A DNA stretch of 64,000 bases, taken from Hypomesus transpacificus (taxonomy: Eukaryota; Chordata; Actinopteri; Osmeriformes; Osmeridae). Under the pieces are notes generated by a model that was not told the origin of the DNA, did no database searches, and worked only from the letters and a program-made list of their open reading frames with translations. The translations under genes and the position numbers were made by a program. Shown here in pieces: positions 3,250 to 63,190 of this stretch (its first letter is position 1; each line of letters opens with the position of its first letter). The DNA is taken from the NCBI RefSeq assembly GCF_021917145.1, contig NW_025813750.1:1-64000 (forward strand), written 5' to 3'.

Positions 3250-3569
3250 CTTTTGTAGGGTACTAATGCCGTCTCGTTGCTTTCAAGTCAGTAAGTGGGT
3301 TTTAAAGGTGAACTGTGGCTCGACATGTTGTCGTTGATGCTTTCTTGGGGCATCGTAGGTATAGTGGCTCCATCACCAGACAATACAAAGTGTGAGAGGC
3401 ATTTCGTCTCTTGTGACGGTCGAGCACATCCGGATTAGGCCAAGTGTTCCAAACTCGACAGAAGTATAAACCAGGTTTATGGCAAACTCTTACTAGTTGG
3501 ACGTCAGTAGGTGGTGTGAAAAATCGAACCGTGGCTCGAAAAGCTGTGCGATCATGGAGGATGTCGTGG

Positions 3570-3611
3570 GTATTGGTGGTATAGTGGCAAGCATAGCTGC
3601 CTTCCACGCGG
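3570..3611 (+). pseudogene. tRNA-Gly(TCC), 5' part split by transposon copy 1
   Basis: Acceptor strand, D arm, anticodon loop CTTCCAC and CGCGG of the anticodon stem are present; then the transposon begins. The second base is T instead of C. The 3' part resumes at 11173. Confidence 0.85.
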
Positions 3612-4216
3612 CGGGCAGACGCCTGTACCTGTAAAGGGAAAAATTGGGGTACTCGTGTCGAATCCCAGTCACGACGATGTTTATTACAAATGATTTATTG
3701 TACTTCTTTCAATGATACAATAGTGGCACTGGTTATCTGCTATATATCAAACCAATGTAAAAGGCCATACTGAGATGCCTCTAATCTACATCTAAAAATT
3801 GCAGTATTGTACATTACAAATACATCATAATTGTATTCAGCCTTGTTTATTAACAAGATTGTGTATTGTCGTTGGCACTATTTTCATTGTTTGTATATTG
3901 TCTGGTTTTGATGGAATATAAAAAAAATATATTCTGGTAAAAACCTCTAATATTGGGGATTTATTTTCAGTGTAACCAGTTGCCTGGATTTGTTTGAGCC
4001 ACTAAATGAAGACATTTGTACAGATGAGTCTTAAGGGGTCAATGGTAATCAATAGTCTGATCCATCTCCATTTTCATACATCATGAACATTTATTTGATG
4101 ATTAATTGTGATACAAATAACTGAGATGAACACACAATCTTATTTTGGCCATTTATTGGAACATGTAATCAAGGCTTGTACAATAACCTAGATTAAGTGC
4201 AAAAACAGTCATATTA

Positions 4217-4222
4217 TTTATT
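4217..4222 (-). terminator. Polyadenylation signal of transposase gene, copy 1
   Basis: AATAAA on the minus strand, about 36 bases after the TAG stop codon. Confidence 0.5.
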
Positions 4223-4257
4223 TGAACTATTTACAACAATTTTTATGTACAGTTTGC

Positions 4258-7200
4258 CTACTTCCCCTTCTCCTCAGCCCACCTCTTCTTCTCTGCCTTG
4301 TAGAAGGCTGATTGTTGAAACTCCCCCCAGGTCATTTCAGCATTCATTCCGTCTGCCTTGTACAGGGACAGCACCCTGGTAGGACAGTAAATGTACCTGC
4401 CCGCCACACCCCGGAACGAATGGTACACATGGGGCTTTCTGGCCCCTGCTTGATGGGCTTGCGGCAGAACTTGCAGAGCCGACCGGTGGGCTGCTGTTCT
4501 GCCGCCCTCCGTTTCCCCCGCAGATCAGCCAACCTCCGTGCCTCTGCTGACCTGAGCTTGGCTGCCTCAAGCTCTTTCCCAAAGAAAGGGGTGTCCGCAA
4601 AGTCCTCAAACGGCATTCTGGGGTCATTCAGGCCTTCTGCTGCATAGAGCTTGTGGACTCTTTGTGAGCAGTAAAAAGTACTTGACCTCCCAGACTGGTA
4701 GAAGAGGTGGATGGAGGAACCGTCTCCCTGGTATCGCGACTTCGGCTGGCCACAGGCAAGACAGTTCCCTCGTCTTCTTTTTGCCCAGCTGCTGCTGCTG
4801 CTGTTGTTGCAGTGCCGTCTGCTTCTGGACTATGTCCCGCACCATGTCCTCGATAGCAGCCTTGGTCAGAGGGGCCTCCTGGGGATCTCTCCCAGGTGGA
4901 TTGACCGCAGCGGGTGGTATGGTCACCACCGGCACGCTCTTGGTCTCACTCTCTGCCGTCAGGTGCTGCCACAGCTGCTGCGTCTCCAGAAGTTTCTCTG
5001 GGCTGGTGTTCAGGGACGTGCTGGCGTTGGTCCGCTTTGCCCCAATGCTTCACATACTGTGAAATGTGTTGCTTTGTTGTTGGATGCAACAGGCTATTGG
5101 GATCACGGGAAGCAGCCCTGCACCAAGCCAGCGTAGTCACTGTCCACCCTCCTGCAGGAAATCCTTCGACCCTTGGTGGATTCCTATGAGGCCGTCGATG
5201 ACCTCCTTCATGGCCTCTGTCCACCGGGAATGGTCCAAGACGTACAGAAGCCCGCCTGCCTTGATGGACATTGTGCGAGCAGCACGCGGGTTTGCTGTAA
5301 TGGGCAGTGCAGGTGTCGTTGGCAGACCTGAAGACAAGTAGAAATAACACATAATAAATATAAAATCTTGCTCTATCAAGCATCAGTGCAACTTGAGTGT
5401 TGCATCTCATTCACATTTTACTAGCAGATGTGTAAAATGAGGGATATTTGCAAAATTACCTTGAGTGGAGGTTGATTGGACTGGCTGGACTGTGGTCTGG
5501 GGCAAGACTCCAGAAGCCTCACCAAAGACGTCATCCTGCAACAGAGGAAGTACATGCATTTCAATTATTTAAACATGTGTGCTTAGTCTGCAGGTATAAC
5601 CTGTGTAAGTTTGAAAGGGTAAATTACAAAGTGCTATCAATGCAACTTACATTGTCTTCTGGCGTGATGAAGGGCTGGTCGGCGACCACCCGGTCAGCCT
5701 CCTCTTCCTGAGCTCCCCTCTTCATCAGCCCCCTGGGACCTGTTCTTGAACCAGTCCAGAGGCACAGGGCGACAGCCTGGCTCCACATACTGCAGGCCAA
5801 ATCTCTCCCCTGTGTCTCTGTGGCTCAACTGCAGTGCAGGGTATTTGGCATGGCGGTCACCCTCTCCGATGCCACGTTCAGCTGCATGATGAGCACTGGG
5901 TCAAAGGACTGCAGGTAGCTTCACGTCCGGTAACTTCAGATCCACCAATCTCTGAAAGTTCCACCGTGCCATGCCCATCATGCCTTGAGCCTGGAAGAGC
6001 TCGGAGGAAACACAGTTGCCTGTGATCCACCGTGCCTGATGCGCATGGAAACCCTCCCTGTTGGGAGGTGCCTCTCACAGGGATCCACACTGGGGAACAG
6101 CTGCTCCTTCACCCTTGACGTGGTTGAGCTGCACTGTTCTCCGTGTCTGTAAAGGATCCCGTCCTCCTCCTCTGGATCACTCAGGCAGCCTCTCAGGATG
6201 TGCACCCTCTGGAGTCTCCACAGCTTTAGCATGGACGGCTTGAAGAGGTAGACACCATTGGGATCTGTCTCTAGGAAGAACTGTTTGAGGACGCTCTCCA
6301 CTCTCTCCAGCAGCTCTGTAGGTTGTGGTACCTTACAATTGAAAAAAGGATTACAGATGATTTCATATGCATTAACGGAATACAGAAATGAAATTACGTA
6401 TTTTTCTTATTTATGTTATAACATAACAAGCATTATTAATGTTATGAACATTCAAAAGTACCTTGGTCCGGCAGTGTTCCCGGATATGCTGCTTTGTGGG
6501 ATTGGCAGGCCTGATCCCACAGAAGGCGTATGCCTCCGTCAGCCTCTGCAGGTCAGTCTGGTCCACCACACAGAATGCAGCACTGAGGAACCGGCAGAAA
6601 GTGCTGTGGAGTGTATGGTGCTCTGACACGCACTCCCTTGAGAACCGCCGCATGCAATGGAAAAGGTCCAGTTTGACAGTGATGTCGCTGCTGTACTTTC
6701 CCCGGGAGGCACATGAGTTGGTCAGGTTCCCAGATGTTGCCCCCGTCACCACAGCTTCCGTGGTTTTCCATGAATCCCAGTGGAGGTGCTCCCTGGGGGT
6801 CAAGGTTTGGGATCCGGAAATCACCACAGCAGTCCCTGCTCACACAGTGAGAGAGAGAGAGAGAAAAACACAAATTAATGATAGGCTTTGAGTTTCTATG
6901 TCACCTGCATACAATCCCCTGTAACTATATAGTATATTATATTTTGCTAAATGTTTCTGTCCTGTGTAAAATTGAATACAAAAGCTGTGATCTGGCTTTT
7001 ACCTGTCCACCCACTGGTACTTTGCCTTCGGCAGTCCAGCTGAGTCGTAGCGATGAGACAGCCCCTCGTACATGGGTTCCAGCGACCGGTCACTCTCTGA
7101 CTGAAGCATCACCCAGGGACAGGATCATCCAGTTCCTCATTCATCACGAGGACATGGTTCCGGATGAGAGCACCACCTTCCGGGCCACCTTCCGTGTGTG

Positions 7201-10200
7201 GTCAGCTCGAATGACCTGCCCAAAAGTGCCTTGCAGGACAAAAGTGAGGGTCTTCTCCTTACGGTGGTACTCATGTACGAGGCAGTCTACTAGGTAGCGG
7301 GGACTGATGGCTACCCCACACCCAGCCATTGGTCAAGTCGTAGGTACCAAAGGGATCAGGGGTGTTGTCCTTCCGCATGGTGCCTGTGATGGTCTTCTGC
7401 CCATACAGGCCGGAGTCACCATCCTGCACATTCTGTACAGTCAACAGATAGGCAAGGTGTGCCCTCTCGTACCGTAGGTGCAGAGCCTCATTCAGCTGAT
7501 TTGCCATGTCTGTGGCGACCTCCCTGTGCGACATAGCTCATCCATTACCGTTTTGCAGATGGCTTTTTTGTGGGTGAGAAATGCTGGCAGGATGTTGCAG
7601 AAGAGTTGTGGCAGCATTTCCATCCACTGGGGTTTGTCAGCGAACCAGTACCTCTTGCATGTTTTGCAGTTCAGCCGAGAGGCCAAGATGTAGTACTGGC
7701 CGCTGGTCCCAATAATGACCCGGGGTCGCCCCAACTCCTGCCGAAACCACATGGGGAGTGGAGCAGCCGTAGAGGCAGGGTAAAATGTAATTGTTCCTCA
7801 CTCTCTCCATAATTGCATGCTCCGGTTTCCAAATGAAAAATGGATGTAGCTGGAAGTACTTGGGAGATGGCATATCATAGACTGGATCTATGAGTTCTGG
7901 TTGGGGTGGATGACGCCACAAGGAGATCATACCCATCAGATGTCGTACAGGTCGAGATCCTGGCCAAAGTCCCAAAGATTCCATCTCCGTTTTCATCCAC
8001 ATCTTCTGGTTTTGGGAGCAGTTCCACTGGCTGACGTCTTGGTCCTTCCTATGGAGTGGTGGTGGGATGGTAGACGGAGCTGGGGTAGGTAGCGCACCAG
8101 CTGCGGCTGGAACAGGACAGGGTAGAGCGACAGCAGCAGACGTGGCAGGAGATGGGAGCAGAGTGCGGTGGCATGGTGGCTGCAGACAGCACAGGAGCCA
8201 GTCGGGGAGAGGCTGCAGGATGACAGATGATAATGATGAGCAACTACATTCTGTAAACAACAGACTAAATACATAGATTTTTAAACATATAAAATATTTT
8301 TAAATACTTTCAAGTAATTATATTATTAAATAATAGTGACTCATACCTTTTGAGATAGCAGTGTTTGCTGACTCTGTACACAGGCCCAGTGCAAGCAACT
8401 CGGCGGAACTGGCACTGGAGCCTTCACTGGAACTGGGGGATCTAATGACAAAATATGTATATAGCTCACAACCTGTCTTTTTGCTACCGAGGACTGCAGT
8501 GAGAGATGACTTTCAATCACAGGCTAAGAGTTAAATGAGGTAAGTAAGTTATGTTTGATTAAATCTTGTATCTAGTTAGGCCGCATGTAGACATCAATAT
8601 TAACCTGGCAACAAAGAAGTGAGTCCATCACCCTGGTCTGGTCTGGAGAGTGTGGCTGCTGGTTTACTCTTTTCTATTACAGAAAGCACAATGTTATTCT
8701 CAACATCTAACATAGTAGCTCATGCAAAACACAACATATTGTTTGTAGTATGTTTTTAAATTGCAAGAGATTCAGATGTAGTCCTAGGAACATGATCATT
8801 TTACCTTGAGCAGTGCTGGGGTCCAGTCTGTTACCAGGCAGTTTAGACTGAGCAGCGGATGGATTCTTATATCCTGAAAAAAAGGACAAAGTTAGTCACC
8901 GTGTAAAAGTTATATTTCAGACTGACAGAGGCAAATTGCATGTGTGCTTTGTTTGCATGTAAGAACTTCTCTCAATTGGATCTGTCAGCAACTATCAAAC
9001 AGCTTTAATCCTAAATAAATAATTTTGTTCAAAAACCTGTTAAGCAAACAATGCAAACGGTGGCATGCACATTCATGCAGTCATCATGCAGAGTATAAGA
9101 CAAATAACACTTACCCTCAACGAAGAGCCTGTAAATTCATAATGGGAATCATGCAGAGTATAAGAAAAAAAACACTTACCATCAACGATGGAGAGGATGT
9201 AAATTCATGATTGGAGTTTTGAAAGGCAGAACACCATAAACATTGAACAAGGCCAGAAACGTGGCATGAACATTGAACAAGGCCAGGAACGTGGCATGAA
9301 CATTGACCAAGAGTCATGTCTTGGTCCCAACAACTGATATGCAAAGAGACCTCGGCCTGCTGGTCTCTTATTCCTGGGAGATGAAGATGCACCCGAAGAC
9401 AGGGCAGCAGCTAGTGACAAAGCAGAGATGAAAAGATGTACAACATGCTGTCAAGTAGCAGTTCAAAAGCATATTGCTTTAAATGTGTCCTCAGTCACAC
9501 ACAACAAGGCCCACAAAGGAACATTCACTTACAGCTCTGCTTGACCATCTTGGAGGGGGAGATGTTCAGCATGGCTTGCTCCAGGTCTTCATCTTCATCC
9601 ATGACTGTGGTGCAAACAGGAAAGAAATATAAGAATGTATTCCTTTCACTGTACAATAGTTACATTTATATCCTATCTGTTACATGCATCAAATGAAAGT
9701 TAACCATAATCACAAGCATTAAATTACTTATAATATTTAATTAATACTGATGACCTACCCACGGCTTGGCTGGAGGCGAGCAGAGGAGAGGACATGGATG
9801 CCTCCTGGGTCTTCTTGGTCAGGTACCGCTTCAGTTTGTCCATGCTAGTTCCCGGAGTGGTGGTCCGGGACAGAACGAACGCTGCAAAGCCATCTGCCCT
9901 ACCCTCCCAGACGTCACCCCAGGTCCTTGTTGGCATGCGGCCAAAGCCGACCTGTTGGTCCTCCTCCACTGAGCTGACAGCCCCGGTCCTCCTGGCCTCG
10001 TACTCCAGCACTGCCTTGATTTCCTTGAAGGAATTGGCATACCCTACAAAGGACCGCAGGCTGTCTTTGCTGGGCCCATCCAAAGGCATGCCAGCCATTT
10101 GCTCCTTTTCAAATTGTTTAATGAGGTACAGAGTGTACCCCACATCATTTTCAAGGAGCCATCTGACCAATTTCCCCTTATACTTTCCAAACTGTAAAGT

Positions 10201-10440
10201 ATACTCCCCCAACACCTCAGTTTGATCAGACACATCCCCCCCTCGGTCACGGACCAAAGAGCACGCCCTTGCCCTCATCTGCTCCTCCTTTATGGGTGCT
10301 GACTTGTCCTTCAGAGAGACAGAGGAGTCCTTCCAACGCTTGGCTTCCTCAGTTGCATCTTGGAGAAGGTAGCCATGTGACCCCTTCCGAAAGACCACCA
10401 CCACTCTCCCAGGATAAAAACTAAAAACTTGCTTAGACAT
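4258..10440 (-). CDS. Dada-like DDE transposase, multi-exon, copy 1
   Basis: Same gene as at 56253-62423, where the domains are described. Exons read from splice signals on the minus strand are 10440-9759, 9604-9533, an uncertain exon near 9410, 8873-8805, 8441-8347, 8212-7003, 6835-6462, 6331-5651, 5535-5460 and 5327-4258. Several exons differ from copies 2 and 3 by one to a few bases that do not keep the frame: +3 net in the last exon, +4 in the large central exon, +3 in the exon at 5651, and -1 in the proline-rich exon at 8347. Nearly all lie in C or G runs. Either this copy is decaying or, more likely, this stretch has uncorrected sequencing errors. Confidence 0.6.
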
Positions 10441-11172
10441 CTGTATTTAAAAGAAATAACACATTCAATAATTACAACAAATTACATGTCAAGAGGGGGT
10501 GGTAGCCAGAGTATTTTCAAACAACACTGCCCTACAGTAGATCTGTATCTATTCGATGAGTGTGCTTACTTGAGGTGAATGTGCCTCATCTCAACTCCCC
10601 CATCCTCCCCCATCCCCCAACAATCCCCCTCAATGTCCTTTGTCTTGGAATGTGTATTAGCTGCGAACAGCTCTCTTCTAACATGACTTTTATTCACGAT
10701 TCACTATTAATTTTACATAACATGCTGGCAAACCATTGTCGGTATATTGTTAGTAACTAACGTTACTGAATAACTTTGGGAAGTTATAGTAGTACCAACG
10801 TAACATTGCATTAGTGGCTACTGTACATACAGTTTCATTCATTCATACTGTTAGACTGAGAGTCATAGCGTGCTCAATGTTGAGTTTTCACAAAGCAGAG
10901 ATGAGTAAAATAACATGTTCATTCATGATTTAGCTAGCTATTTTTAGATCTATCCAGATGGATATCTTACCTCAGTGCAGATCTACGTGTACTGTTCTCT
11001 CAAAAAATATTCTGATCTGAGACGCTTCTCTATCTCGTAAGAAAACCGCGAAACAGCGCCCCCCAAATCCCCATAGTGGCCACAAATGGTAGTATTCGAT
11101 ATGGTTAAGGATAGCCATAGAGAATGAATGGGAAAAGTTAAGGAAGTTAAGACCATTCATCGCAGCCTCCCG

Positions 11173-11207
11173 CGCGGCTGACCCGGGTTCGATTCCCGGC
11201 CAATGCA
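11173..11207 (+). pseudogene. tRNA-Gly, 3' part split by transposon copy 1
   Basis: CGCGGCTGACC restores the 3' side of the anticodon stem, followed by an intact T arm and acceptor strand. It is the partner of 3570-3611. Confidence 0.85.
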
Positions 11208-11335
11208 GAACCTTGAGAAAAATGTATTTTATCTGGTGTCATTCCACTGCTTGCGGGCATTAGATATAGTCACGTGAGCTCCTGGACGATCGATCAGCTT
11301 CGGTTCGAGCTCGGCTGGCCAACAGTTGACAACAG

Positions 11336-14115: not shown

Positions 14116-14157
14116 GCATTGGTGGTATAGTGGCAAGCATAGCTGCCTTCCACGCGG
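14116..14157 (+). pseudogene. tRNA-Gly(TCC), 5' part split by transposon copy 2
   Basis: Ends CTTCCACGCGG at the same base as the other two split copies. The partner is 21702-21736. Confidence 0.85.
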
Positions 14158-14763
14158 CGGGCAGACGCCTGTACCTGTAAAGGGAAAAATTGGGGTACTC
14201 GTGTCGAATCCCAGTCACGACGATGTTTATTACAAATGATTTATTGTACTTCTTTCAATGATACAATATAGTGGCACTGGTTATCTGCTATATATCAAAC
14301 CAATGTAAAAGGCCATACTGAGATGCCTCTAATCTACATCTAAAATTGCAGTATTGTACATTACAAATACATCACAATTGTATTTAGCCTTGTTTATTAA
14401 CAAGATTGTGTATTGTCCGTTGGCACTATTTTCATTGTTTGTATATTGTCTGGTTTTGATGGAATATAAAAAAATATATTCTGGTAAAAACCTCTAATAT
14501 TGGGGATTTATTTTCAGTGTAACCAGTTGCCTGGATTTGTTTGCGCCACTAAATGAAGACATTTGTACAGATGAGTCTTAAGGGGTCAATGGTAATCAAT
14601 AGTCTGATCCATCTCCATTTTCATACATCATGAACATTTATTTGATGATTAATTGTGATACAAATAACTGAGATGAACACACAATCTTATTTTGGCCATT
14701 TATTGGAACATGTAATCAAGGCTTGTACAAATAACCTAGATTAAGTGCAAAACAGTCATATTA

Positions 14764-14769
14764 TTTATT
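14764..14769 (-). terminator. Polyadenylation signal of transposase gene, copy 2
   Basis: AATAAA on the minus strand shortly after the stop codon. Confidence 0.5.
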
Positions 14770-14804
14770 TGAACTATTTACAACAATTTTTATGTACAGT
14801 TTGC

Positions 14805-17800
14805 CTACTTCCCCTTCTCCTCAGCCCACCTCTTCTTCTCTGCCTTGTAGAAGGCTGATTGTTGAAACTCCCCCCAGGTCATTTCAGCATTCATTCCGTC
14901 TGCCTTGTACAGGGACAGCACCCTGGTAGGACAGTAAATGTACCTGCCCGCCACACCCCGGAACGAATGGTACACATGGGGGCTTTCTGGCCCCTGCTTG
15001 ATGGGCTTGCGGCAGAACTTGCAGAGCCGACCGGTGGGCTGCTGTTCTGCCGCCCTCCATTTCCCCCGCAGATCAGCCAACCTCCGTGCCTCTGCTGACC
15101 TGAGCTTGGCTGCCTCAAGCTCTTTCCCAAAGAAAGGGGTGTCCGCAAAGTCCTCAAACGGCATTCTGGGGTCATTCAGGCCTTCTGCTGCATAGAGCTT
15201 GTGGACTCTTTGTGAGCAGTAAAAGTACTTGACCTCCCCAGACTGGTAGAAGAGGTGGATGGAGGAACCGTCTCCCTGGTGTCGCGACTTCGGCTGGCCA
15301 CAGGCAAGACAGTTCCTCGTCTTCTTTTTGCCCAGCTGCTGCTGCTGCTGTTGTTGCAGTGCCGTCTGCTTCTGGACTATGTCCCGCACCATGTCCTCGA
15401 TAGCAGCCTTGGTCAGAGGGGCCTCCTGGGGATCTCTCCCAGGTGGATTGACCGCAGCGGGTGGTATGGTCACCACCGGCACGCTCTTGGTCTCACTCTC
15501 TGCCGTCAGGTGCTGCCACAGCTGCTGCGTCTCCAGGAGTTTCTGTGGGCTGGTGTTCAGGGACGTGCTGGCGTTGGTCCGCTTTGCCCAATGCTTCACA
15601 TACTGTGAAATGTGTTGCTTTGTTGTTGGATGCAACAGGCTATTGGGATCACGGGAAGCAGCCTGCACCAAGCCAGCGTAGTCACTGTCCACCCTCTGCA
15701 GGAAATCCTTCGACCCTTGGTGGATTCCTATGAGGCCGTCGATGACCTCCTTCATGGCCTCTGTCCACCGGGAATGGTCCAAGACGTACAGAAGCCCGCC
15801 TGCCTTGATGGACATTGTGCGAGCAGCACGCGGGTTTGCTGTGATGGGCAGTGCAGGTGTCGTTGGCAGACCTGAAGACAAGTAGAAATAACACATAATA
15901 AATATAAAATCTTGCTCTATCAAGCATCAGTGCAACTTGAGTGTTGCATCTCATTCACATTTTACTAGCAGATGTGTAAAATGAGGGATATTTGCAAAAT
16001 TACCTTGAGTGGAGGTTGATTGGACTGGCTGGACTGTGGTCTGGGGCAAGACTCCAGAAGCCTCACCAAAGACGTCATCCTGCAACAGAGGAAGTACATG
16101 CATTTCAATTATTTAAACATGTGTTCTTAGTCTGCAGGTATAACCTGTGTAAGTTTGAAAGTGTAAATTACAAAGTGCTATCAATGCAACTTACATTGTC
16201 TTCTGGCGTGATGAAGGGCTGGTCGGCGACCACCCGGTCAGCCTCCTCTTCCTCAGCTCCCTCTTCATCAGCCCCCTGGGACCTGTTCTTGAACCAGTCC
16301 AGAGGCACAGGGCGACAGCCTGGCTCCACATACTGCAGGCCAAATCTCTCCCCTGTGTCTCTGTGGCATTCAGGGTATTTGGCATGGCCGGTCACCCTCT
16401 CCGATGCCACGTTCAGCTGCATGATGAGCACTGGGTCAAAGACTGCAGGTAGCTTCACGTCCGGTAACTTCAGATCCACCAATCTCTGAAAGTTCCACCG
16501 TGCCATGCCCATCATGCCTTGAGCCTGGAAGAGCTCGGAGGAAACACAGTTGCCTGTGATCCACCGTGCCTGATGCGCATGGAAACCCTCCTGTTGGGAG
16601 GTGCCTCTCACAGGGATCCACACTGGGACAGCTGCTCCTTCACCCTTGACGTGGTTGAGCTGCACTGTTCCTCCGTGTCTGTAAAGGATCCCGTCCTCCT
16701 CCTCTGGATCACTCAGGCAGCCTCTCAGGATGTGCACCCTCTGGAGTCTCCACAGCTTTAGCATGGACGGCTTGAAGAGGTAGACACCATTGGGATCTGT
16801 CTCTAGGAAGAACTGTTTGAGGACGCTCTCCACTCTCTCCAGCAGCTCTGTAGGTTGTGGTACCTTACAATTGAAAAAAGGATTACAGATGATTTCATAT
16901 GCATTAACGGAATACAGAAATGAAATTACGTATTTTTCTTATTTATGTTATAACATAACAAGCATTATTAATGTTATGAACATTCAAAAGTACCTTGGTC
17001 CGGCAGTGTTCCCGGATATGCTGCTTTGTGGGATTGGCAGGCCTGATCCCACAGAAGGCGTATGCCTCCGTCAGCCTCTGCAGGTCAGTCTGGTCCACCA
17101 CACAGAATGCAGCACTGAGGAACCGGCAGAAAGTGCTGTGGAGTGTATGGTGCTCTGACACGCACTCCCTTGAGAACCGCCGCATGCAATGGAAAAGGTC
17201 CAGTTTGACAGTGATGTCGCTGCTGTACTTTCCCCGGGAGGCACATGAGTTGGTCAGGTTCCCAGATGTTGCCCCCGTCACCACAGCTTCCGTGGTTTTC
17301 CATGAATCCCAGTGGAGGTGCTCCTGGGGGTCAAGGTTTGGGATCCGGAAATCACCACAGCAGTCCCTGCTCACACAGTGAGAGAGAGAGAGAGAAAAAC
17401 ACAAATTAATGATAGGCTTTGAGTTTCTATGTCACCTGCATACAATCCCCTGTAACTATATAGTATATTATATTTTGCTAAATGTTTCTGTCCTGTGTAA
17501 AATTGAATACAAAAGCTGTGATCTGGCTTTTACCTGTCCACCCACTGGTACTTTGCCTTCGGCAGTCCAGCTGAGTCGTAGCGATGAGACAGCCCCTCGT
17601 ACATGGGTTCCAGCGACCGGTCACTCTCTGACTGAAGCATCACCCAGGACAGGATCATCCAGTTCTCATTCATCACGAGGACATGGTTCCGGATGAGAGC
17701 ACCACCTTCCGGGCCACCTTCCGTGTGTGGTCAGCTCGAATGACCTGCCCAAAAGTGCCTTGCAGGACAAGAGTGAGGGTCTTCTCCTTACGGTGGTACT

Positions 17801-20800
17801 CATGTACGAGGCAGTCTACTAGGTAGCGGGGACTGATGGCTACCCCACACCAGCCATTGGTCAAGTCGTAGGTACCAAAGGGATCAGGGGTGTTGTCCTT
17901 CCGCATGGTGCCTGTGATGGTCTTCTGCCCATACAGGCCGGAGTCACCATCCTGCACATTCTGTACAGTCAACAGATAGGCAAGGTGTGCCCTCTCGTAC
18001 CGTAGGTGCAGAGCCTCATTCAGCTGATTTGCCATGTCTGTGGCCGACCTCCCTGTGCGACATAGCTCATCCATTACCGTTTTGCAGATGGCTTTTTTGT
18101 GGGTGAGAAATGCTGGCAGGATGTTGCAGAAGAGTTGTGGCAGCATTTCCATCCACTGGGGTTTGTCAGCGAACCAGTACCTCTTGCATGTTTTGCAGTT
18201 CAGCCGAGAGGCCAAGATGTAGTACTGGCCGCTGGTCCCAATAATGACCCGGGGTCGCCCAACTCCTGCCGAAACCTCATGGGGAGTGGAGCAGCCGTAG
18301 AGGCAGGGTAAAATGTAATTGTTCCTCACTCTCTCCATAATTGCATGCTCCGGTTTCCAAATGAAAAATGGATGTAGCTGGAAGTACTTGGGAGATGGCA
18401 TATCATAGACTGGATCTATGAGTTCTGGTTGGGGTGGATGACGCCACAAGGAGATCATACCCATCAGATGTCGTACAGGTCGAGATCCTGGCCAAAGTCC
18501 CAAAGATTCCATCTCCGTTTTCATCCACATCTTCTGGTTTTGGGAGCAGTTCCACTGGCTGACGTCTTGGTCCTTCCTATGGAGTGGTGGTGGGATGGTA
18601 GACGGAGCTGGGGTAGGTAGCGCACCAGCTGCGGCTGGAACAGGACAGGGTAGAGCGACAGCAGCAGACGTGGCAGGAGATGGAGCAGAGTGCGGTGGCA
18701 TGGTGGCTGCAGACAGCACAGGAGCCAGTCGGGGAGAGGCTGCAGGATGACAGATGATAATGATGAGCAACTAAATTCTGTAAACAACAGACTAAATACA
18801 TAGATTTTTAAACATATAAAATATTTTTAAATACTTTCAAGTAATTATATTATTAAATAATAGTGACTCATACCTTTTGAGATAGCAGTGTTTGCTGACT
18901 CTGTACACAGGCCCAGTGCAAGCAACTCGGGCGGAACTGGCACTGGAGCCTTCACTGGAACTGGGGGATCTAATGACAAAATATGTATATAGCTCACAAC
19001 CTGTCTTTTTGCTACCGGGACTGCAGTGAGAGATGACTTTCAATCACAGGCTAAGAGTTAAATGAGGTAAGTAAGTTATGTTTGATTAAATCTTGTATCT
19101 AGTTAGGCGCATGTAGACATCAATATTAACCTGGCAACAAAGAAGTGAGTCCATCACCCTGGTCTGGTCTGGAGAGTGTGGCTGCTGGTTTACTCTTTTC
19201 TATTACAGAAAGCACAATGTTATTCTCAACATCTAACATAGTAGCTCATGCAAAACACAACATATTGTTTGTAGTATGTTTTTAAATTGCAAGAGATTCA
19301 GATGTAGTCCTAGCAACATGATCATTTTACCTTGAGCAGTGCTGGGGTCCAGTCTGTTACCAGGCAGTTTAGACTGAGCAGCGGATGGATTCTTATATCC
19401 TGAAAAAAAGGACAAAGTTAGTCACCGTGTAAAAGTTATATTTCAGACTGACAGAGGCAAATTGCATGTGTGCTTTGTTTGCATGTAAGAACTTCTCTCA
19501 ATTGGATCTGTCAGCAACTATCAAACAGCTTTAATCCTAAATAAATAATTTTGTTCAAAAACCTGTTAAGCAAACAATGCAAACGGTGGCATGCACATTC
19601 ATGCAGTCATCATGCAGAGTATAAGACAAATAACACTTACCCTCAACGAAGAGCCTGTAAATTCATAATGGGAATCATGCAGAGTATAAGAAAAAAAAAC
19701 ACTTACCATCAACGATGGAGAGGATGTAAATTCATGATTGGAGTTTTGAAAGGCAGAACACCATAAACATTGAACAAGGCCAGAAACGTGGCATGAACAT
19801 TGAACAAGGCCAGGAATGTGGCATGAACATTGACCAAGAGTCATGTCTTGGTCCCAACAACTGATATGCAAAGAGACCTCGGCCTGCTGGTCTCTTATTC
19901 CTGGGAGATGAAGATGCACCCGAAGACAGGGCAGCAGCTAGTGACAAAGCAGAGATGAAAAGATGTACAACATGCTGTCAAGTAGCAGTTCAAAAGCATA
20001 TTGCTTTAAATGTGTCCTCAGTCACACACAACAAGGCCCACAAAGGAACATTCACTTACAGCTCTGCTTGACCATCTTGGAGGGGGAGATGTTCAGCATG
20101 GCTTGCTCCAGGTCTTCATCTTCATCCATGACTGTGGTGCAAACAGGAAAGAAACATAAGAATGTATTCCTTTCACTGTACAATAGTTACATTTATATCC
20201 TATCTGTTACATGCATCAAATGAAAGTTAACCATAATCACAAGCATTAAATTACTTATAATATTTAATTAATACTGATGACCTACCCACGGCTTGGCTGG
20301 AGGCGAGCAGAGGAGAGGACATGGATGCCTCCTGGGTCTTCTTGGTCAGGTACCGCTTCAGTTTGTCCATGCTAGTTCCCGGAGTGGTGGTCCGGGACAG
20401 AACGAACGCTGCAAAGCCATCTGCCCTACCCTCCCAGACGTCACCCCAGGTCCTTGTTGGCATGCGGCCAAAGCCGACCTGTTGGTCCTCCTCCACTGAG
20501 CTGACAGCCCCGGTCCTCCTGGCCTCGTACTCCAGCACTGCCTTGATTTCCTTGAAGGAATTGGCATACCCTACAAAGGACCGCAGGCTGTCTTTGCTGG
20601 GCCCATCCAAAGGCATGCCAGCCATTTGCTCCTTTTCAAATTGTTTAATGAGGTACAGAGTGTACCCCACATCATTTTCAAGGAGCCATCTGACCAATTT
20701 CCCCATATACTTTCCAAACTGTAAAGTATACTCCCCCAACACCTCAGTTTGATCAGACACATCCCCCCCTCGGTCACGGACCAAAGAGCACGCCCTTGCC

Positions 20801-20967
20801 CTCATCTGCTCCTCCTTTATGGGTGCTGACTTGTCCTTCAGAGAGACAGAGGAGTCCTTCCAACGCTTGGCTTCCTCAGTTGCATCTTGGAGAAGGTAGC
20901 CATGTGACCCCTTCCGAAAGACCACCACCACTCTCCCAGGATAAAAACTAAAAACTTGCTTAGACAT
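14805..20967 (-). CDS. Dada-like DDE transposase, multi-exon, copy 2
   Basis: Exons on the minus strand are 20967-20286, 20131-20060, an uncertain exon near 19935, 19399-19331, 18969-18874, 18739-17534, 17366-16994, 16863-16195, 16079-16004 and 15871-14805. Exon lengths and phases match copy 3 except the exon at 16195, which is 9 bases shorter and stays in frame. The catalytic-type motifs DHT, VDRDCC, DLFH and QQEGFH are all present. In the first exon the FGKYKG motif reads FGKYMG. The frame change near the end of the 1,206-base exon, next to the MNENW motif, is shared with copies 1 and 3, so it predates the duplications or marks a splice variant I cannot see. Confidence 0.7.
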
Positions 20968-21701
20968 CTGTATTTAAAAGAAATAACACATTCAATAATT
21001 TCAACAAATTACATGTCAAGAGGGGGTGGTAGCCAGAGTATTTTCAAACAACACTGCCCTACAGTAGATCTGTATCTATTCGATGAGTGTGCTTACTTGA
21101 GGTGAATGTGCCTCATCTCAACTCCCCCATCCTCCCCCATCCCCCAACAATCCCCCTCAATGTCCTTTGTCTTGGAATGTGTATTAGCTGCGAACAGCTC
21201 TCTTCTAACATGACTTTTATTCACGATTCACTATTAATTTTACATAACATGCTGGCAAACCATTGTCGGTATATTGTTAGTAACTAACGTTACTGAATAA
21301 CTTTGGGAAGTTATAGTAGTACCAACGTAACATTGCATTAGTGGCTACTGTACATACAGTTTCATTCATTCATAATGTTAGACTGAGAGTCATAGCGTGC
21401 TCAATGTTGAGTTTTCACAAAGCAGAGATGAGTAAAATAACATGTTCATTCATGATTTAGCTAGCTATTTTTAGATCTATCCAGATGGATATCTTACCTC
21501 AGTGCAGATCAACGTGTACTGTTCTCTCAAACAATATATTCTGATCTGAGACGCTTCTCTATCTCGTAAGAAAACCGCGAAACAGCGCCCCCCAAATCCC
21601 CATAGTGGCCACAAATGGTAGTATTCGATATGGTTAAGGATAGCCATAGAGAATGAATGGGAAAAGTTAAGGAAGTTAAGACCATTCATAGCAGCCTGCC
21701 G

Positions 21702-21736
21702 CGCGGCTGACCCGGGTTCGATTCCCGGCCAATGCA
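21702..21736 (+). pseudogene. tRNA-Gly, 3' part split by transposon copy 2
   Basis: The 3' side of the anticodon stem, T arm and acceptor strand are intact. Confidence 0.85.
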
Positions 21737-27781: not shown

Positions 27782-28321
27782 TGTCAGAAGTATTAATCTA
27801 TCAAGCATTGCTCAGTCAGTCGGTGAACAAGTTTAAGAAAGCTTTATTGCTTGTGGCCGGCCCACAAGGAGACAAAACATCACACCCCATTGTGCTACAA
27901 GTTTGTCCGCTAGCATGTTGCGCTAGCTAGCTATTTAAGCAGAACCGCCCTTTACAGTCATTGGTTAAGACAAAGGCATGCAAATGTTCCATTGCTCTTC
28001 TTCATTGGCTTCTTGCATAGACCTGGCGCGCGCGTGTGTGCGTGCGTGTTTGAGTGTGTGCGTGCTTGAGTGTGTGCGTGTGTGTGCCTTTTGACCCCTG
28101 TAAGCTTGACCACATGATTCACCCAACACAGATAAGGCCAGACATCTTTTATGGCCTCTCCAGTAAGAGAGAGTGGTCAGCCCAGGTCACCTTGTTTACG
28201 TATGCCTCATGTTACCCAAAGTCCAGATTTGGGGGTAGGCTTCTCTCTACACACAAGGAATGCTGAACACAGAATCATTCTTATACAGGATAAATGTGTT
28301 ACATCTTCAATTTCTCCAACA
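27782..28321 (-). repeat. LTR, left
   Basis: 540 bases, the 3' LTR in element orientation. The purine-rich tract GGAGGG lies just inside it on the minus strand, as expected for a polypurine tract. Confidence 0.85.
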
Positions 28322-30918: not shown

Positions 30919-30936
30919 ATCCGGCTCGAAGGACCA
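30919..30936 (-). other. Primer binding site, tRNA-Tyr type
   Basis: 18 bases complementary to the tRNA-Tyr 3' end, 3 bases from the right LTR. Confidence 0.75.
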
Positions 30937-30939
30937 TTG

Positions 30940-31479
30940 TGTCAGAAGTATTAATCTATCAAGCATTGCACAGTCAGTCGGTGAACAAGTTTAAGAAAGC
31001 TTTATTGCTTGTGGCCGGCCCACAAGGAGACAAAACATCACACCCCATTGTGCTACAAGTTTGTCCGCTAGCATGTTGCGCTAGCTAGCTATTTAAGCAG
31101 AACCGCCCTTTACAGTCATTGGTTAAGACAAAGGCATGCAAATGTTCCATTGCTCTTCTTCATTGGCTCCTTGCATAGACCTGGCGCGCGCGTGTGTGCG
31201 TGCGTGTTTGAGTGTGTGCGTGCTTGAGTGTGTGCGTGTGTGTGCCTTTTGACCCCTGTAAGCTTGACCACATGATTCACCCAACACAGATAAGGCCAGA
31301 CATCTTTTATGGCCTCTTCAGTAAGAGAGAGTGGTCAGCCCAGGTCACCTTGTTTACGTATGCCTCATGTTACCCAAAGTCCAGATTTGGGGGTAGGCTT
31401 CTCTCTACACACAAGGAATGCTGAACACAGAATCATTCTTATACAGGATAAATGTGTTACATCTTCAATTTCTCCAACA
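30940..31479 (-). repeat. LTR, right
   Basis: 540 bases, the 5' LTR in element orientation. TATA-like TTAAATAG and AATAAA are present on the minus strand. Confidence 0.85.
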
Positions 31480-48230: not shown

Positions 48231-48533
48231 CAACAGGTCTTAGCTGATAGGGACCAGAGTGCTTTAATAACTACACTATGGAGTTTTTTTTTAAATCAAT
48301 TTGGAGCAAAATTCGACTATATATATATACAATTTCATTCTTACCTTGTCCATCGAAAGCTGTGCCTCTTAGCTAGTCCAGAAATCCGTCACCTTTCCAC
48401 CATCCCCTCCCCCCCCAAAAAACTGGCCTCTTTTTAAACAGCCATTTTTGCTGCGAGGTTCTCCATTGTCATGCACGTCTGCACGATTTTAGTTCTTGGT
48501 TCTTGGGTTCTGGATGGTGGAATGGATGTTGGA

Positions 48534-48551: not shown

Positions 48552-48554
48552 TTG

Positions 48555-55562: not shown

Positions 55563-55604
55563 GCATTGGTGGTATAGTGGCAAGCATAGCTGCCTTCCAC
55601 GCGG
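55563..55604 (+). pseudogene. tRNA-Gly(TCC), 5' part split by transposon copy 3
   Basis: Consensus 5' part ending CTTCCACGCGG. The partner is 63156-63190. Confidence 0.85.
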
Positions 55605-56211
55605 CGGGCAGACGCCTGTACCTGTAAAGGGAAAAATTGGGGTACTCGTGTCGAATCCCAGTCACGACGATGTTTATTACAAATGATTTATTGTACTTCT
55701 TTCAATGATACAATATAGTGGCACTGGTTATCTGCTATATATCAAACCAATGTAAAAGGCCATACTGAGATGCCTCTAATCTACATCTAAAATTGCAGTA
55801 TTGTACATTACAAATACATCATAATTGTATTCAGCCTTGTTTATTAACAAGATTGTGTATTGTCCGTTGGCACTATTTTCATTGTTTGTATATTGTCTGG
55901 TTTTGATGGAATATAAAAAAAATATATTCTGGTAAAAACCTCTAATATTGGGGATTTATTTTCAGTGTAACCAGTTGCCTGGATTTGTTTGAGCCACTAA
56001 ATGAAGACATTTGTACAGATGAGTCTTAAGGGGTCAATGGTAATCAATAGTCTGATCCATCTCCATTTTCATACATCATGAACATTTATTTGATGATTAA
56101 TTGTGATACAAATAACTGAGATGAACACACAATCTTATTTTGGCCATTTATTGGAACATGTAATCAAGGCTTGTACAAATAACCTAGATTAAGTGCAAAA
56201 CAGTCATATTA

Positions 56212-56217
56212 TTTATT
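56212..56217 (-). terminator. Polyadenylation signal of transposase gene, copy 3
   Basis: AATAAA on the minus strand, about 36 bases after the stop codon. Confidence 0.5.
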
Positions 56218-56252
56218 TGAACTATTTACAACAATTTTTATGTACAGTTTGC

Positions 56253-59200
56253 CTACTTCCCCTTCTCCTCAGCCCACCTCTTCTTCTCTGCCTTGTAGAA
56301 GGCTGATTGTTGAAACTCCCCCCAGGTCATTTCAGCATTCATTCCGTCTGCCTTGTACAGGGACAGCACCCTGGTAGGACAGTAAATGTACCTGCCCGCC
56401 ACACCCCGGAACGAATGGTACACATGGGGGCTTTCTGGCCCCTGCTTGATGGGCTTGCGGCAGAACTTGCAGAGCCGACCGGTGGGCTGCTGTTCTGCCG
56501 CCCTCCGTTTCCCCCGCAGATCAGCCAACCTCCGTGCCTCTGCTGACCTGAGCTTGGCTGCCTCAAGCTCTTTCCCAAAGAAAGGGGTGTCCGCAAAGTC
56601 CTCAAACGGCATTCTGGGGTCATTCAGGCCTTCTGCTGCATAGAGCTTGTGGACTCTTTGTGAGCAGTAAAAGTACTTGACCTCCCCAGACTGGTAGAAG
56701 AGGTGGATGGAGGAACCGTCTCCCTGGTATCGCGACTTCGGCTGGCCACAGGCAAGACAGTTCCTCGTCTTCTTTTTGCCCAGCTGCTGCTGCTGCTGTT
56801 GTTGCAGTGCCGTCTGCTTCTGGACTATGTCCCGCACCATGTCCTCGATAGCAGCCTTGGTCAGAGGGGCCTCCTGGGGATCTCTCCCAGGTGGATTGAC
56901 CGCAGCGGGTGGTATGGTCACCACCGGCACGCTCTTGGTCTCACTCTCTGCCGTCAGGTGCTGCCACAGCTGCTGCGTCTCCAGAAGTTTCTCTGGGCTG
57001 GTGTTCAGGGACGTGCTGGCGTTGGTCCGCTTTGCCCAATGCTTCACATACTGTGAAATGTGTTGCTTTGTTGTTGGATGCAACAGGCTATTGGGATCAC
57101 GGGAAGCAGCCTGCACCAAGCCAGCGTAGTCACTGTCCACCCTCTGCAGGAAATCCTTCGACCCTTGGTGGATTCCTATGAGGCCGTCGATGACCTCCTT
57201 CATGGCCTCTGTCCACCGGGAATGGTCCAAGACGTACAGAAGCCCGCCTGCCTTGATGGACATTGTGCGAGCAGCACGCGGGTTTGCTGTGATGGGCAGT
57301 GCAGGTGTCGTTGGCAGACCTGAAGACAAGTAGAAATAACACATAATAAATATAAAATCTTGCTCTATCAAGCATCAGTGCAACTTGAGTGTTGCATCTC
57401 ATTCACATTTTACTAGCAGATGTGTAAAATGAGGGATATTTGCAAAATTACCTTGAGTGGAGGTTGATTGGACTGGCTGGACTGTGGTCTGGGGCAAGAC
57501 TCCAGAAGCCTCACCAAAGACGTCATCCTGCAACAGAGGAAGTACATGCATTTCAATTATTTAAACATGTGTGCTTAGTCTGCAGGTATAACCTGTGTAA
57601 GTTTGAAAGGGTAAATTACAAAGTGCTATCAATGCAACTTACATTGTCTTCTGGCGTGATGAAGGGCTGGTCGGCGACCACCCGGTCAGCCTCCTCTTCC
57701 TCAGCTCCCTCTTCATCAGCCCCCTGGGACCTGTTCTTGAACCAGTCCAGAGGCACAGGGCGACAGCCTGGCTCCACATACTGCAGGCCAAATCTCTCCC
57801 CTGTGTCTCTGTGGCTCAACTGCAGTGCAGGGTATTTGGCATGGCCGGTCACCCTCTCCGATGCCACGTTCAGCTGCATGATGAGCACTGGGTCAAAGAC
57901 TGCAGGTAGCTTCACGTCCGGTAACTTCAGATCCACCAATCTCTGAAAGTTCCACCGTGCCATGCCCATCATGCCTTGAGCCTGGAAGAGCTCGGAGGAA
58001 ACACAGTTGCCTGTGATCCACCGTGCCTGATGCGCATGGAAACCCTCCTGTTGGGAGGTGCCTCTCACAGGGATCCACACTGGGACAGCTGCTCCTTCAC
58101 CCTTGACGTGGTTGAGCTGCACTGTTCCTCCGTGTCTGTAAAGGATCCCGTCCTCCTCTTCTGGATCACTCAGGCAGCCTCTCAGGATGTGCACCCTCTG
58201 GAGTCTCCACAGCTTTAGCATGGACGGCTTGAAGAGGTAGACACCATTGGGATCTGTCTCTAGGAAGAACTGTTTGAGGACGCTCTCCACTCTCTCCAGC
58301 AGCTCTGTAGGTTGTGGTACCTTACAATTGAAAAAAGGATTACAGATGATTTCATATGCATTAACGGAATACAGAAATTAAATTACGTATTTTTCTTATT
58401 TATGTTATAACATAACAAGCATTATTAATGTTATGAACATTCAAAAGTACCTTGGTCCGGCAGTGTTCCCGGATATGCTGCTTTGTGGGATTGGCAGGCC
58501 TGATCCCACAGAAGGCGTATGCCTCCGTCAGCCTCTGCAGGTCAGTCTGGTCCACCACACAGAATGCAGCACTGAGGAACCGGCAGAAAGTGCTGTGGAG
58601 TGTATGGTGCTCTGACACGCACTCCCTTGAGAACCGCCGCATGCAATGGAAAAGGTCCAGTTTGACAGTGATGTCGCTGCTGTACTTTCCCCGGGAGGCA
58701 CATGAGTTGGTCAGGTTCCCAGATGTTGCCCCCGTCACCACAGCTTCCGTGGTTTTCCATGAATCCCAGTGGAGGTGCTCCTGGGGGTCAAGGTTTGGGA
58801 TCCGGAAATCAGCACAGCAGTCCCTGCTCACACAGTGAGAGAGAGAGAGAGAAAAACACAAATTAATGATAGGCTTTGAGTTTCTATGTCACCTGCATAC
58901 AATCCCCTGTAACTATATAGTATATTATATTTTGCTAAATGTTTCTGTCCTGTGTAAAATTGAATACAAAAGCTGTGATCTGGCTTTTACCTGTCCACCC
59001 ACTGGTACTTTGCCTTCGGCAGTCCAGCTGAGTCGTAGCGATGAGACAGCCCCTCGTACATGGGTTCCAGCGACCGGTCACTCTCTGACTGAAGCATCAC
59101 CCAGGACAGGATCATCCAGTTCTCATTCATCACGAGGACATGGTTCCGGATGAGAGCACCACCTTCCGGGCCACCTTCCGTGTGTGGTCAGCTCGAATGA

Positions 59201-62200
59201 CCTGCCCAAAAGTGCCTTGCAGGACAAGAGTGAGGGTCTTCTCCTTACGGTGGTACTCATGTACGAGGCAGTCTACTAGGTAGCGGGGACTGATGGCTAC
59301 CCCACACCAGCCATTGGTCAAGTCGTATGTACCAAAGGGATCAGGGGTGTTGTCCTTCCGCATGGTGCCTGTGATGGTCTTCTGCCCATACAGGCCGGAG
59401 TCACCATCCTGCACATTCTGTACAGTCAACAGATAGGCAAGGTGTGCCCTCTCGTACCGTAGGTGCAGAGCCTCATTCAGCTGATTTGCCATGTCTGTGG
59501 CCGACCTCCCTGTGCGACATAGCTCATCCATTACCGTTTTGCAGATGGCTTTTTTGTGGGTGAGAAATGCTGGCAGGATGTTGCAGAAGAGTTGTGGCAG
59601 CATTTCCATCCACTGGGGTTTGTCAGCGAACCAGTACCTCTTGCATGTTTTGCAGTTCAGCCGAGAGGCCAAGATGTAGTACTGGCCGCTGGTCCCAATA
59701 ATGACCCGGGGTCGCCCAACTCCTGCCGAAACCACATGGGGAGTGGAGCAGCCGTAGAGGCAGGGTAAAATGTAATTGTTCCTCACTCTCTCCATAATTG
59801 CATGCTCCGGTTTCCAAATGAAAAATGGATGTAGCTGGAAGTACTTGGGAGATGGCATATCATAGACTGGATCTATGAGTTCTGGTTGGGGTGGATGACG
59901 CCACAAGGAGATCATACCCATCAGATGTCGTACAGGTCGAGATCCTGGCCAAAGTCCCAAAGATTCCATCTCCGTTTTCATCCACATCTTCTGGTTTTGG
60001 GAGCAGTTCCACTGGCTGACGTCTTGGTCCTTCCTATGGAGTGGTGGTGGGATGGTAGACGGAGCTGGGGTAGGTAGCGCACCAGCTGCGGCTGGAACAG
60101 GACAGGGTAGAGCGACAGCAGCAGACGTGGCAGGAGATGGAGCAGAGTGCGGTGGCATGGTGGCTGCAGACAGCACAGGAGCCAGTCGGGGAGAGGCTGC
60201 AGGATGACAGATGATAATGATGAGCAACTACATTCTGTAAACAACAGACTAAATACATAGATTTTTAAACATATAAAATATTTTTAAATACTTTCAAGTA
60301 ATTATATTATTAAATAATAGTGACTCATACCTTTTGAGATAGCAGTGTTTGCTGACTCTGTACACAGGCCCAGTGCAAGCAACTCGGGCGGAACTGGCAC
60401 TGGAGCCTTCACTGGAACTGGGGGATCTAATGACAAAATATGTATATAGCTCACAACCTGTCTTTTTGCTACCGGGACTGCAGTGAGAGATGACTTTCAA
60501 TCACAGGCTAAGAGTTAAATGAGGTAAGTAAGTTATGTTTGATTAAATCTTGTATCTAGTTAGGCGCATGTAGACATCAATATTAACCTGGCAACAAAGA
60601 AGTGAGTCCATCACCCTGGTCTGGTCTGGAGAGTGTGGCTGCTGGTTTACTCTTTTCTATTACAGAAAGCACAATGTTATTCTCAACATCTAACATAGTA
60701 GCTCATGCAAAACACAACATATTGTTTGTAGTATGTTTTTAAATTGCAAGAGATTCAGATGTAGTCCTAGGAACATGATCATTTTACCTTGAGCAGTGCT
60801 GGGGTCCAGTCTGTTACCAGGCAGTTTAGACTGAGCAGCGGATGGATTCTTATATCCTGAAAAAAAGGACAAAGTTAGTCACCGTGTAAAAGTTATATTT
60901 CAGACTGACAGAGGCAAATTGCATGTGTGCTTTGTTTGCATGTAAGAACTTCTCTCAATTGGATCTGTCAGCAACTATCAAACAGCTTTAATCCTAAATA
61001 AATAATTTTGTTCAAAAACCTGTTAAGCAAACAATGCAAACGGTGGCATGCACATTCATGCAGTCATCATGCAGACTATAAGACAAATAACACTTACCCT
61101 CAACGAAGAGCCTGTAAATTCATAATGGGAATCATGCAGAGTATAAGAAAAAAAACACTTACCATCAACGATGGAGAGGATGTAAATTCATGATTGGAGT
61201 TTTGAAAGGCAGAACACCATAAACATTGAACAAGGCCAGAAACGTGGCATGAACATTGAACAAGGCCAGGAACGTGGCATGAACATTGACCAAGAGTCAT
61301 GTCTTGGTCCCAACAACTGATATGCAAAGAGACCTCGGCCTGCTGGTCTCTTATTCCTGGGAGATGAAGATGCACCCGAAGACAGGGCAGCAGCTAGTGA
61401 CAAAGCAGAGATGAAAAGATGTACAACATGCTGTCAAGTAGCAGTTCAAAAGCATATTGCTTTAAATGTGTCCTCAGTCACACACAACAAGGCCCACAAA
61501 GGAACATTCACTTACAGCTCTGCTTGACCATCTTGGAGGGGGAGATGTTCAGCATGGCTTGCTCCAGGTCTTCATCTTCATCCATGACTGTGGTGCAAAC
61601 AGGAAAGAAACATAAGAATGTATTCCTTTCACTGTACAATAGTTACATTTATATCCTATCTGTTACATGCATCAAATGAAAGTTAACCATAATCACAAGC
61701 ATTAAATTACTTATAATATTTAATTAATACTGATGACCTACCCACGGCTTGGCTGGAGGCGAGCAGAGGAGAGGACATGGATGCCTCCTGGGTCTTCTTG
61801 GTCAGGTACCGCTTCAGTTTGTCCATGCTAGTTCCCGGAGTGGTGGTCCGGGACAGAACGAACGCTGCAAAGCCATCTGCCCTACCCTCCCAGACGTCAC
61901 CCCAGGTCCTTGTTGGCATGCGGCCAAAGCCGACCTGTTGGTCCTCCTCCACTGAGCTGACAGCCCCGGTCCTCCTGGCCTCGTACTCCAGCACTGCCTT
62001 GATTTCCTTGAAGGAATTGGCATACCCTACAAAGGACCGCAGGCTGTCTTTGCTGGGCCCATCCAAAGGCATGCCAGCCATTTGCTCCTTTTCAAATTGT
62101 TTAATGAGGTACAGAGTGTACCCCACATCATTTTCAAGGAGCCATCTGACCAATTTCCCCTTATACTTTCCAAACTGTAAAGTATACTCCCCCAACACCT

Positions 62201-62423
62201 CAGTTTGATCAGACACATCCCCCCCTCGGTCACGGACCAAAGAGCACGCCCTTGCCCTCATCTGCTCCTCCTTTATGGGTGCTGACTTGTCCTTCAGAGA
62301 GACAGAGGAGTCCTTCCAACGCTTGGCTTCCTCAGTTGCATCTTGGAGAAGGTAGCCATGTGACCCCTTCCGAAAGACCACCACCACTCTCCCAGGATAA
62401 AAACTAAAAACTTGCTTAGACAT
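56253..62423 (-). CDS. Dada-like DDE transposase, multi-exon, copy 3 (reference copy)
   Basis: Minus-strand exons, each with GT/AG borders and matching phase: 62423-61742, 61587-61516, an uncertain exon ending near 61393, 60856-60788, 60426-60331, 60196-58991, 58823-58451, 58320-57643, 57527-57452 and 57319-56253. Exon 1 starts MSKQVF and holds FGKYKG at residues 84-89. The proline-rich linker is in the 60331 exon. The large exon has a zinc-ribbon-like part (PCLYGC ... CKTC) resembling the fish domain I know as DUF6729. A catalytic-type triad follows: D in ADHT (59187-59189), D in WVDRDCC (58993-58995), a D-x2-H motif DLFH (58655-58657), and E in QQEGFH (58045-58047), as in hAT/MuDR/P-related transposases. 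The last exon has a short polyQ run and two related CxxC zinc modules (CLACG, CKFC). One frame change near MNENW is shared by all copies, so activity is uncertain. Confidence 0.7.
61071..61198. repeat. Tandem duplication around a candidate micro-exon
   Basis: Two copies of about 64 bases each end in a splice-donor-like GGTAAGTG on the minus strand, preceded by GAATTTACA. The second copy has an A-run whose length differs among transposon copies. They may be alternative micro-exons of the transposase gene. Confidence 0.55.
61222..61294. repeat. Minisatellite of 30-base units in transposon
   Basis: About 2.4 direct copies of a unit starting AACATTGAACAAGGCC lie in or next to the uncertain third exon. 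The same repeat is in the other two transposon copies. Confidence 0.8.
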
Positions 62424-63155
62424 CTGTATTTAAAAGAAATAACACATTCAATAATTACAACAAATTACATGTCAAGAGGGGGTGGTAGCCAGAGTATTTT
62501 CAAACAACACTGCCCTACAGTAGATCTGTATCTATTCGATGAGTGTGCTTACTTGAGGTGAATGTGCCTCATCTCAACTCCCCCATCCTCCCCCATCCCC
62601 CAACAATCCCCCTCAATGTCCTTTGTCTTGGAATGTGTATTAGCTGCGAACAGCTCTCTTCTAACATGACTTTTATTCACGATTCACTATTAATTTTACA
62701 TAACATGCTGGCAAACCATTTTCGGTATATTGTTAGTAACTAACGTTACTGAATAACTTTGGGAAGTTATAGTAGTACCAACGTAACATTGCATTAGTGG
62801 CTACTGTACATACAGTTTCATTCATTCATACTGTTAGACTGAGAGTCATAGCGTGCTCAATGTTGAGTTTTCACAAAGCAGAGATGAGTAAAATAACATG
62901 TTCATTCATGATTTAGCTAGCTATTTTTAGATCTATCCAGATGGATATCTTACCTCAGTGCAGATCTACGTGTACTGTTCTCTCAAAAAATATTCTGATC
63001 TGAGACGCTTCTCTATCTCGTAAGAAAACCGCGAAACAGCGCCCCCCAAATCCCCATAGTGGCCACAAATGGTAGTATTCGATATGGTTAAGGATAGCCA
63101 TAGAGAATGAATGGGAAAAGTTAAGGAAGTTAAGACCATTCATCGCAGCCTCCCG

Positions 63156-63190
63156 CGCGGCTGACCCGGGTTCGATTCCCGGCCAATGCT
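63156..63190 (+). pseudogene. tRNA-Gly, 3' part split by transposon copy 3
   Basis: Intact T arm and acceptor strand; the discriminator reads T. Confidence 0.85.

Follow-up and report, generated by a model that had tools for sequence, protein, structure and literature searches.

A DNA transposon that very probably belongs to the tD/tV lineage of the Dada superfamily occupies one and the same base of tRNA-Gly(TCC) genes, three times over, in a Hypomesus smelt. The stretch of DNA analysed (64 kb in length; the window) holds 78 tRNA genes by the count of ARAGORN, forming a tandem array of tRNA-Leu and tRNA-Gly(TCC); intact tRNA-Gly genes number 31, with the element-interrupted genes coming on top. 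A sequence-only reading had placed a 7.5-kb element in the anticodon arm of a tRNA-Gly gene, and this is where it lies: nt 1-37 and nt 44-72 of the tRNA enclose 7,560 bp (copy e1 in the table below). BLAST of this element against the window returns two more near-full-length copies, e2 and e3, each at the identical base of the anticodon arm of another tRNA-Gly gene, which excludes a chance repeat. The orientation of the element is opposite to that of the tRNA, with transposase on the minus strand and tRNA on the plus strand.

Changes confined to e1, relative to the other two copies, comprise 28 indels and 4 substitutions. These indels, all of which fall between about 3,720 and 8,600, break the transposase frames and are probably assembly errors (unpolished sequence) rather than decay. 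The corresponding counts are 4 indels and 22 substitutions for e2, and 0 indels and 6 substitutions for e3.

Table. Coordinates in the window of the three element copies, the tRNA-Gly genes that they interrupt, and the modelled transposase exons of e3.
Feature	Position	Strand	Remark
tRNA-Gly(TCC) 5' part, nt 1-37, e1	3570..3606	+	compared with 31 intact tRNA-Gly genes
Left 6-bp repeat CGCGGC (nt 38-43), e1	3607..3612	.	
Element copy e1, 7,560 bp	3613..11172	-	many single-base indels
Multi-exon transposase gene span, e1	4258..10440	-	frame broken many times
Right 6-bp repeat CGCGGC, e1	11173..11178	.	
tRNA-Gly 3' part, nt 44-72, e1	11179..11207	+	
tRNA-Gly nt 1-37, e2	14116..14152	+	
Left repeat CGCGGC, e2	14153..14158	.	
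Element copy e2, 7,543 bp	14159..21701	-	long open exons
Right repeat CGCGGC, e2	21702..21707	.	
tRNA-Gly nt 44-72, e2	21708..21736	+	
tRNA-Gly nt 1-37, e3	55563..55599	+	
Left repeat CGCGGC, e3	55600..55605	.	
Element copy e3, 7,550 bp	55606..63155	-	long open exons
e3 last coding exon	56253..57319	-	two C-terminal CCHC-like fingers; includes stop codon
e3 short exon	57452..57527	-	
e3 exon with presumed catalytic Glu	57643..58320	-	
e3 exon with DxxH motif (DLFH)	58451..58823	-	
e3 exon with DUF6729 / CCCC finger	58991..60196	-	first catalytic Asp, frame break, second Asp near end
e3 first modelled coding exon	61742..62423	-	small exons between it and 58991..60196 left out of model
Right repeat CGCGGC, e3	63156..63161	.	
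tRNA-Gly nt 44-72, e3	63162..63190	+	

The hexamer CGCGGC is found, exact, on both sides of all three copies. The CGCGG noted earlier on the two sides of e1 is part of it, and the earlier count of 7-8 bases, one mismatch being tolerated, is right as well, the e1 repeat extending to 8 bp with one mismatch (CACGCGGC / CGCGCGGC). The same positions (nt 38-43) read AGCAGT in 31/31 intact tRNA-Gly genes of the window, from which CGCGGC differs at three bases. When the flanks of an occupied gene are joined across one repeat, the anticodon stem is fully paired and ARAGORN calls a tRNA-Gly(TCC), for 3/3 copies. The earlier claim that the joined flanks represent a real tRNA gene stands to that extent, but the pairing is no proof that CGCGG pre-existed, since AGCAGT also pairs in the anticodon stem. 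(Rfam, at gathering scores, gives no match over 3500-11300.) With the frame shifted two bases earlier, to nt 36-41, the left repeat becomes CACGCG and the right one CGCGCG. The exact smelt repeat, at nt 38-43, lies two bases further 3' than the CACGCA site of Dada-tV, which we take to be nt 36-41 of tRNA-Val. Dada-tV elements lie in the anticodon arm in opposite orientation, and CGCGCG or CGCGCA seems to have taken the place of CACGCA there (PMC8869645); the odd repeat is a trait already reported for the Dada-tV/tD group.

Compared with each other, the ends of the element match at 5-6 of 10 positions, and no matching terminal inverted repeats are apparent. The inner right end, set in register against nt 26-35 of tRNA-Gly, matches at 7/10 positions in e1 (11161-11170) and 8/10 in e2 (21690-21699), a likeness of at least 7/10 arising at 0.56% of all element positions; the left end matches the target at 6/10 only, which 2.5% of positions reach. 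The inner right end looks as if it were mimicking the tRNA target. It may have a parallel in the target-like short sub-terminal repeats of Dada-U6 and Dada-U1, which are described as having no terminal inverted repeats (PMC3706591). The idea of a Pol III B box in the left end was dropped: the element, both strands included, holds one 9/11 match, whereas random sequence of equal composition would be expected to give about 2.8 on each strand.

The transposase was modelled from e3, with exon joins placed by eye and the small N-terminal exons left out. Its product carries, in the order described for Dada, a CCCC finger (C-x3-C-x31-C-x2-C, upstream of D1), two Asp residues, DLFH, a Glu and two CCHC-like fingers, and its sole Pfam match at cut-off is the DUF6729 domain (E 6.3e-17). 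In the 15 aligned relatives D402, D469 and E686 (P0001 numbering) are invariant and DxxH is nearly so, the catalytic residues being spaced by 67 (D1-D2) and 217 (D2-E); the same residues are present in e3, in which the D-D count is blurred by a frame break. This break falls just after the first catalytic Asp in 3/3 copies (near 7147, 17676 and 59133). The relatives read through at the corresponding position, as does the H. transpacificus protein P0046 (LOC124475971, an automatic gene model), and an intact copy is likely, on these predicted sequences, to exist in the genome. DUF6729 (PF20499), a name without a stated function, is present in 15/15 relatives scanned and covers the CCCC finger region. 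An AlphaFold model of the perch relative P0007 (41 aligned sequences) has a mean pLDDT of 43.7 and is too poor to test for an RNase H-like DDE fold. Relative P0043 carries the further Pfam domains PF26138 and PF13359, the latter presumably a DDE family, and may be a chimeric gene model.

Membership of the Dada superfamily, which the sequence-only reading had proposed by inference, is well supported when judged against published feature descriptions. Agreement with these extends to the motifs and how they are spaced, to a 6-bp repeat that lies within a small-RNA gene of many copies, to the orientation, to ends that show no matching terminal inverted repeats, and to the relatives. The landmarks described for Dada-U6_DR are D567, D635, E811, DxxH, a C-x4-C-x34-C-x2-C finger and CCHC, and the traits of Dada elements include introns, lengths of 4.7-11 kb, target duplications of 6-7 bp and insertion at one constant site within multicopy genes for small RNAs (PMC3706591). 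The smelt element has a DDE triad in which DxxH follows the second Asp, CCCC and CCHC fingers, a 6-bp duplication and a fixed site (3/3 copies in the window). Its zinc-finger spacings are similar to those of Dada-U6_DR, if slightly different, and its catalytic spacings are 67 and 217 as against 68 and 176, the second being longer (PMC3706591). That the element should belong instead to another DDE superfamily with C/DxxH and be merely Dada-like is barely credible: the motif is indeed common to hAT, P, Kolobok and MuDR (PMC8869645), Pfam yields only DUF6729 at cut-off and a PDB profile search gave nothing significant (best E 0.33), but Dada is matched by the site-specific insertion into a gene for a small RNA, by the repeat of 6 bp and by both finger types (CCCC and CCHC), and at E 0.01 none of the 15 relatives scanned was hit by a transposase model of Pfam.

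The anticodon-arm site and opposite orientation are traits of Dada-tV/tD, with which the smelt element also has in common a repeat of ~6 bp, a CGCGCG-like replacement of the target and tRNA-Gly as a target, an occasional one in that group (PMC8869645). Unlike Dada-tV/tD as presented in that source, it is found in tRNA-Gly-TCC in 3/3 copies and in an osmeriform host; Osmeriformes do not occur in the main text of PMC8869645. Dada-tG_PMar of Perkinsus marinus (Kojima and Jurka 2013, PMC3706591) is also a named Dada family in tRNA-Gly, but is inserted at nt 8-13 (A box) rather than in the anticodon arm, and its host is a protist. Dada-tA (zebrafish and medaka) is alike in that a native 6-bp site in the anticodon region is replaced by a fixed foreign 6-mer; it differs in its target (tRNA-Ala), in its site, 5 bp upstream of that of tV/tD, and in belonging to a distant lineage (PMC8869645). 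The proposal of an undescribed tRNA-Gly-targeting family does not hold up, with Gly among the fish Dada targets of the 2022 abstract, 2/5 full-length copies of Dada-tV_OL in tRNA-Gly-GCC (PMC8869645) and Dada-tG_PMar named in 2013 (PMC3706591). Even 'candidate new tRNA-Gly family' overstates the case, because Dada-tV/tD elements with this site, this orientation, flank replacement and tRNA-Gly-GCC insertions are already published. What is new is the host order Osmeriformes, and the occurrence in no target other than tRNA-Gly-TCC (3 copies, one window); the kind itself has been described. Literature searches found no publication pairing Hypomesus with Dada and none mentioning DUF6729, and the titles among the matches listed included no further Dada study besides Kojima 2022 (PMC8869645). 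The smelt joins the hosts of Dada-tV/tD-like elements and leaves transposon classification unchanged. Three same-site copies beside 31 empty tRNA-Gly genes in one array constitute a useful natural test, one that bears on site choice by Dada and on the reason for the frequent replacement of its target duplication.

Relatives of the transposase occur in many fishes. In H. transpacificus, the predicted protein P0091 (LOC124489267) is 98.8% identical to the C-terminal 670 residues, with 0 mismatches and two gaps, and P0046 aligns over 150, 256 and 130 residues with 1, 0 and 7 mismatches, respectively; P0091 belongs to a 90% cluster of 29 sequences. By these matches the host is a smelt of the genus Hypomesus, which could also be H. 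nipponensis. Two further protein searches for other Dada lineages gave named matches (the best 120 of 167 in one, 104/104 in the other) that are all from fish, none labelled as any Dada lineage, and a scan of viral contigs gave 33 pattern matches with no relative among them. A tree was built from 47 named proteins, hand-picked from 151, plus the product of e3, with tV and tD labels given by host family per Table 1 of PMC8869645, read loosely. The e3 product is placed in a clade of six rows (SH-aLRT 100), together with proteins of medaka, O. javanicus, goldfish, Onychostoma and Ataeniobius, none labelled as Dada; the first three are of a species or family listed for Dada-tV (PMC8869645). Proteins of Anabas, Betta, Thunnus and Cyclopterus, labelled as tD hosts, are on the other main branch. 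The split is not clean, in that 4/13 tV-host rows lie on that other main branch and 1/6 tD rows (Anguilla) on the side of e3; the clustering of labels is reached in 13/500 shuffles. Betta, the leuciscids and the icefish relatives belong, we assume, to families without mention in Table 1.

As to how the copies arose, the transposase would recognise the DNA sequence of the anticodon arm and make a staggered 6-bp cut there, and the element would join in the orientation opposite to that of the tRNA, bringing its old flanking bases along. The carrying of old flanks is suggested because the repeat is CGCGGC instead of AGCAGT; the same has been proposed for Dada-tA and Dada-tY, and a similar replacement is reported for Dada-tV (PMC8869645). 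Since all three copies carry the same transposase frame break, e1-e3 probably owe their movement to an intact relative at another genomic location (acting in trans, if they were separately inserted). The target might alternatively have been a natural tRNA-Gly variant that already had CGCGGC, nothing being replaced at insertion. The fully paired stem of the joined flanks and their call as tRNA-Gly(TCC) are consistent with this, and the flank differences of Dada-tV are allowed, in PMC8869645 itself, to reflect divergence of tRNA genes; but CGCGGC is present in 0/31 intact genes of the window, and independent insertions would need the variant in three different array units, which makes this reading unlikely.

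Separate insertions, rather than duplication within the array, are favoured (though not proven) by sequence comparison, because the element copies are far less diverged than their flanks and because the left flank of e2 is nearly identical to an intact unit (1 mismatch in 457). Pairs of copies show 10-28 substitutions over about 7,550 positions, and their flanks 33-42 over about 1,280 (left, 14-23 of 450-456; right, 17-28 of 825-831), so that substitutions between elements are 9-19 times rarer than in flanks (Fisher p about 1e-18 or less); the flank differences start 36-42 bases to the left and 28-47 bases to the right of the repeat. These figures, and the match of e2 to an intact unit, also argue against a single Dada insertion from which unequal exchange and gene conversion in the tandem array made three copies, without site-specific transposition for copies 2 and 3. 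Such a history would account for identical repeats and for a frame break common to 3/3 copies, and the LTR element in tRNA-Leu of the same array behaves in this way; for the Dada copies we consider it rather unlikely. Homing is another way in which the outer flanks could differ: once the transposase had cut an intact tRNA-Gly gene, repair would copy an occupied unit into it, with its element, CGCGGC and internal defects, leaving distant flanks those of the recipient. The replaced and identical repeats, the shared frame break, the near-identical elements and the different outer flanks would all be covered together, but the same facts fit normal transposition in trans in which the flanks are carried along, and the tRNA bodies are too alike to reveal conversion tracts. 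We regard homing as decidedly improbable; if true, it would mean that a defective copy can spread, and that the 'replaced' target duplications of several Dada families are repair products and not true duplications.

The LTR-type element is found four times at one base of tRNA-Leu: at 1-992 (cut off at the window start), 27782-31479 (internally deleted), 39289-39828 (a solo LTR) and 41043-49094 (about 8 kb). It has TG...CA ends, 540-bp LTRs and a 5-bp CCAAG repeat, and no stop-to-stop frame of at least 200 aa overlaps the 8-kb copy. Judged by its flanks, it probably goes back to a single insertion that exchange within the array has multiplied, because three of its left flanks share a base found in 0/33 uninterrupted tRNA-Leu genes matched by pattern. 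As a control for the Dada comparison it gives a mixed picture: the left flanks differ by 1-4 of 450, while the right flanks are shuffled (0-32 mismatches of 405-450), and array exchange thus does change flanks.
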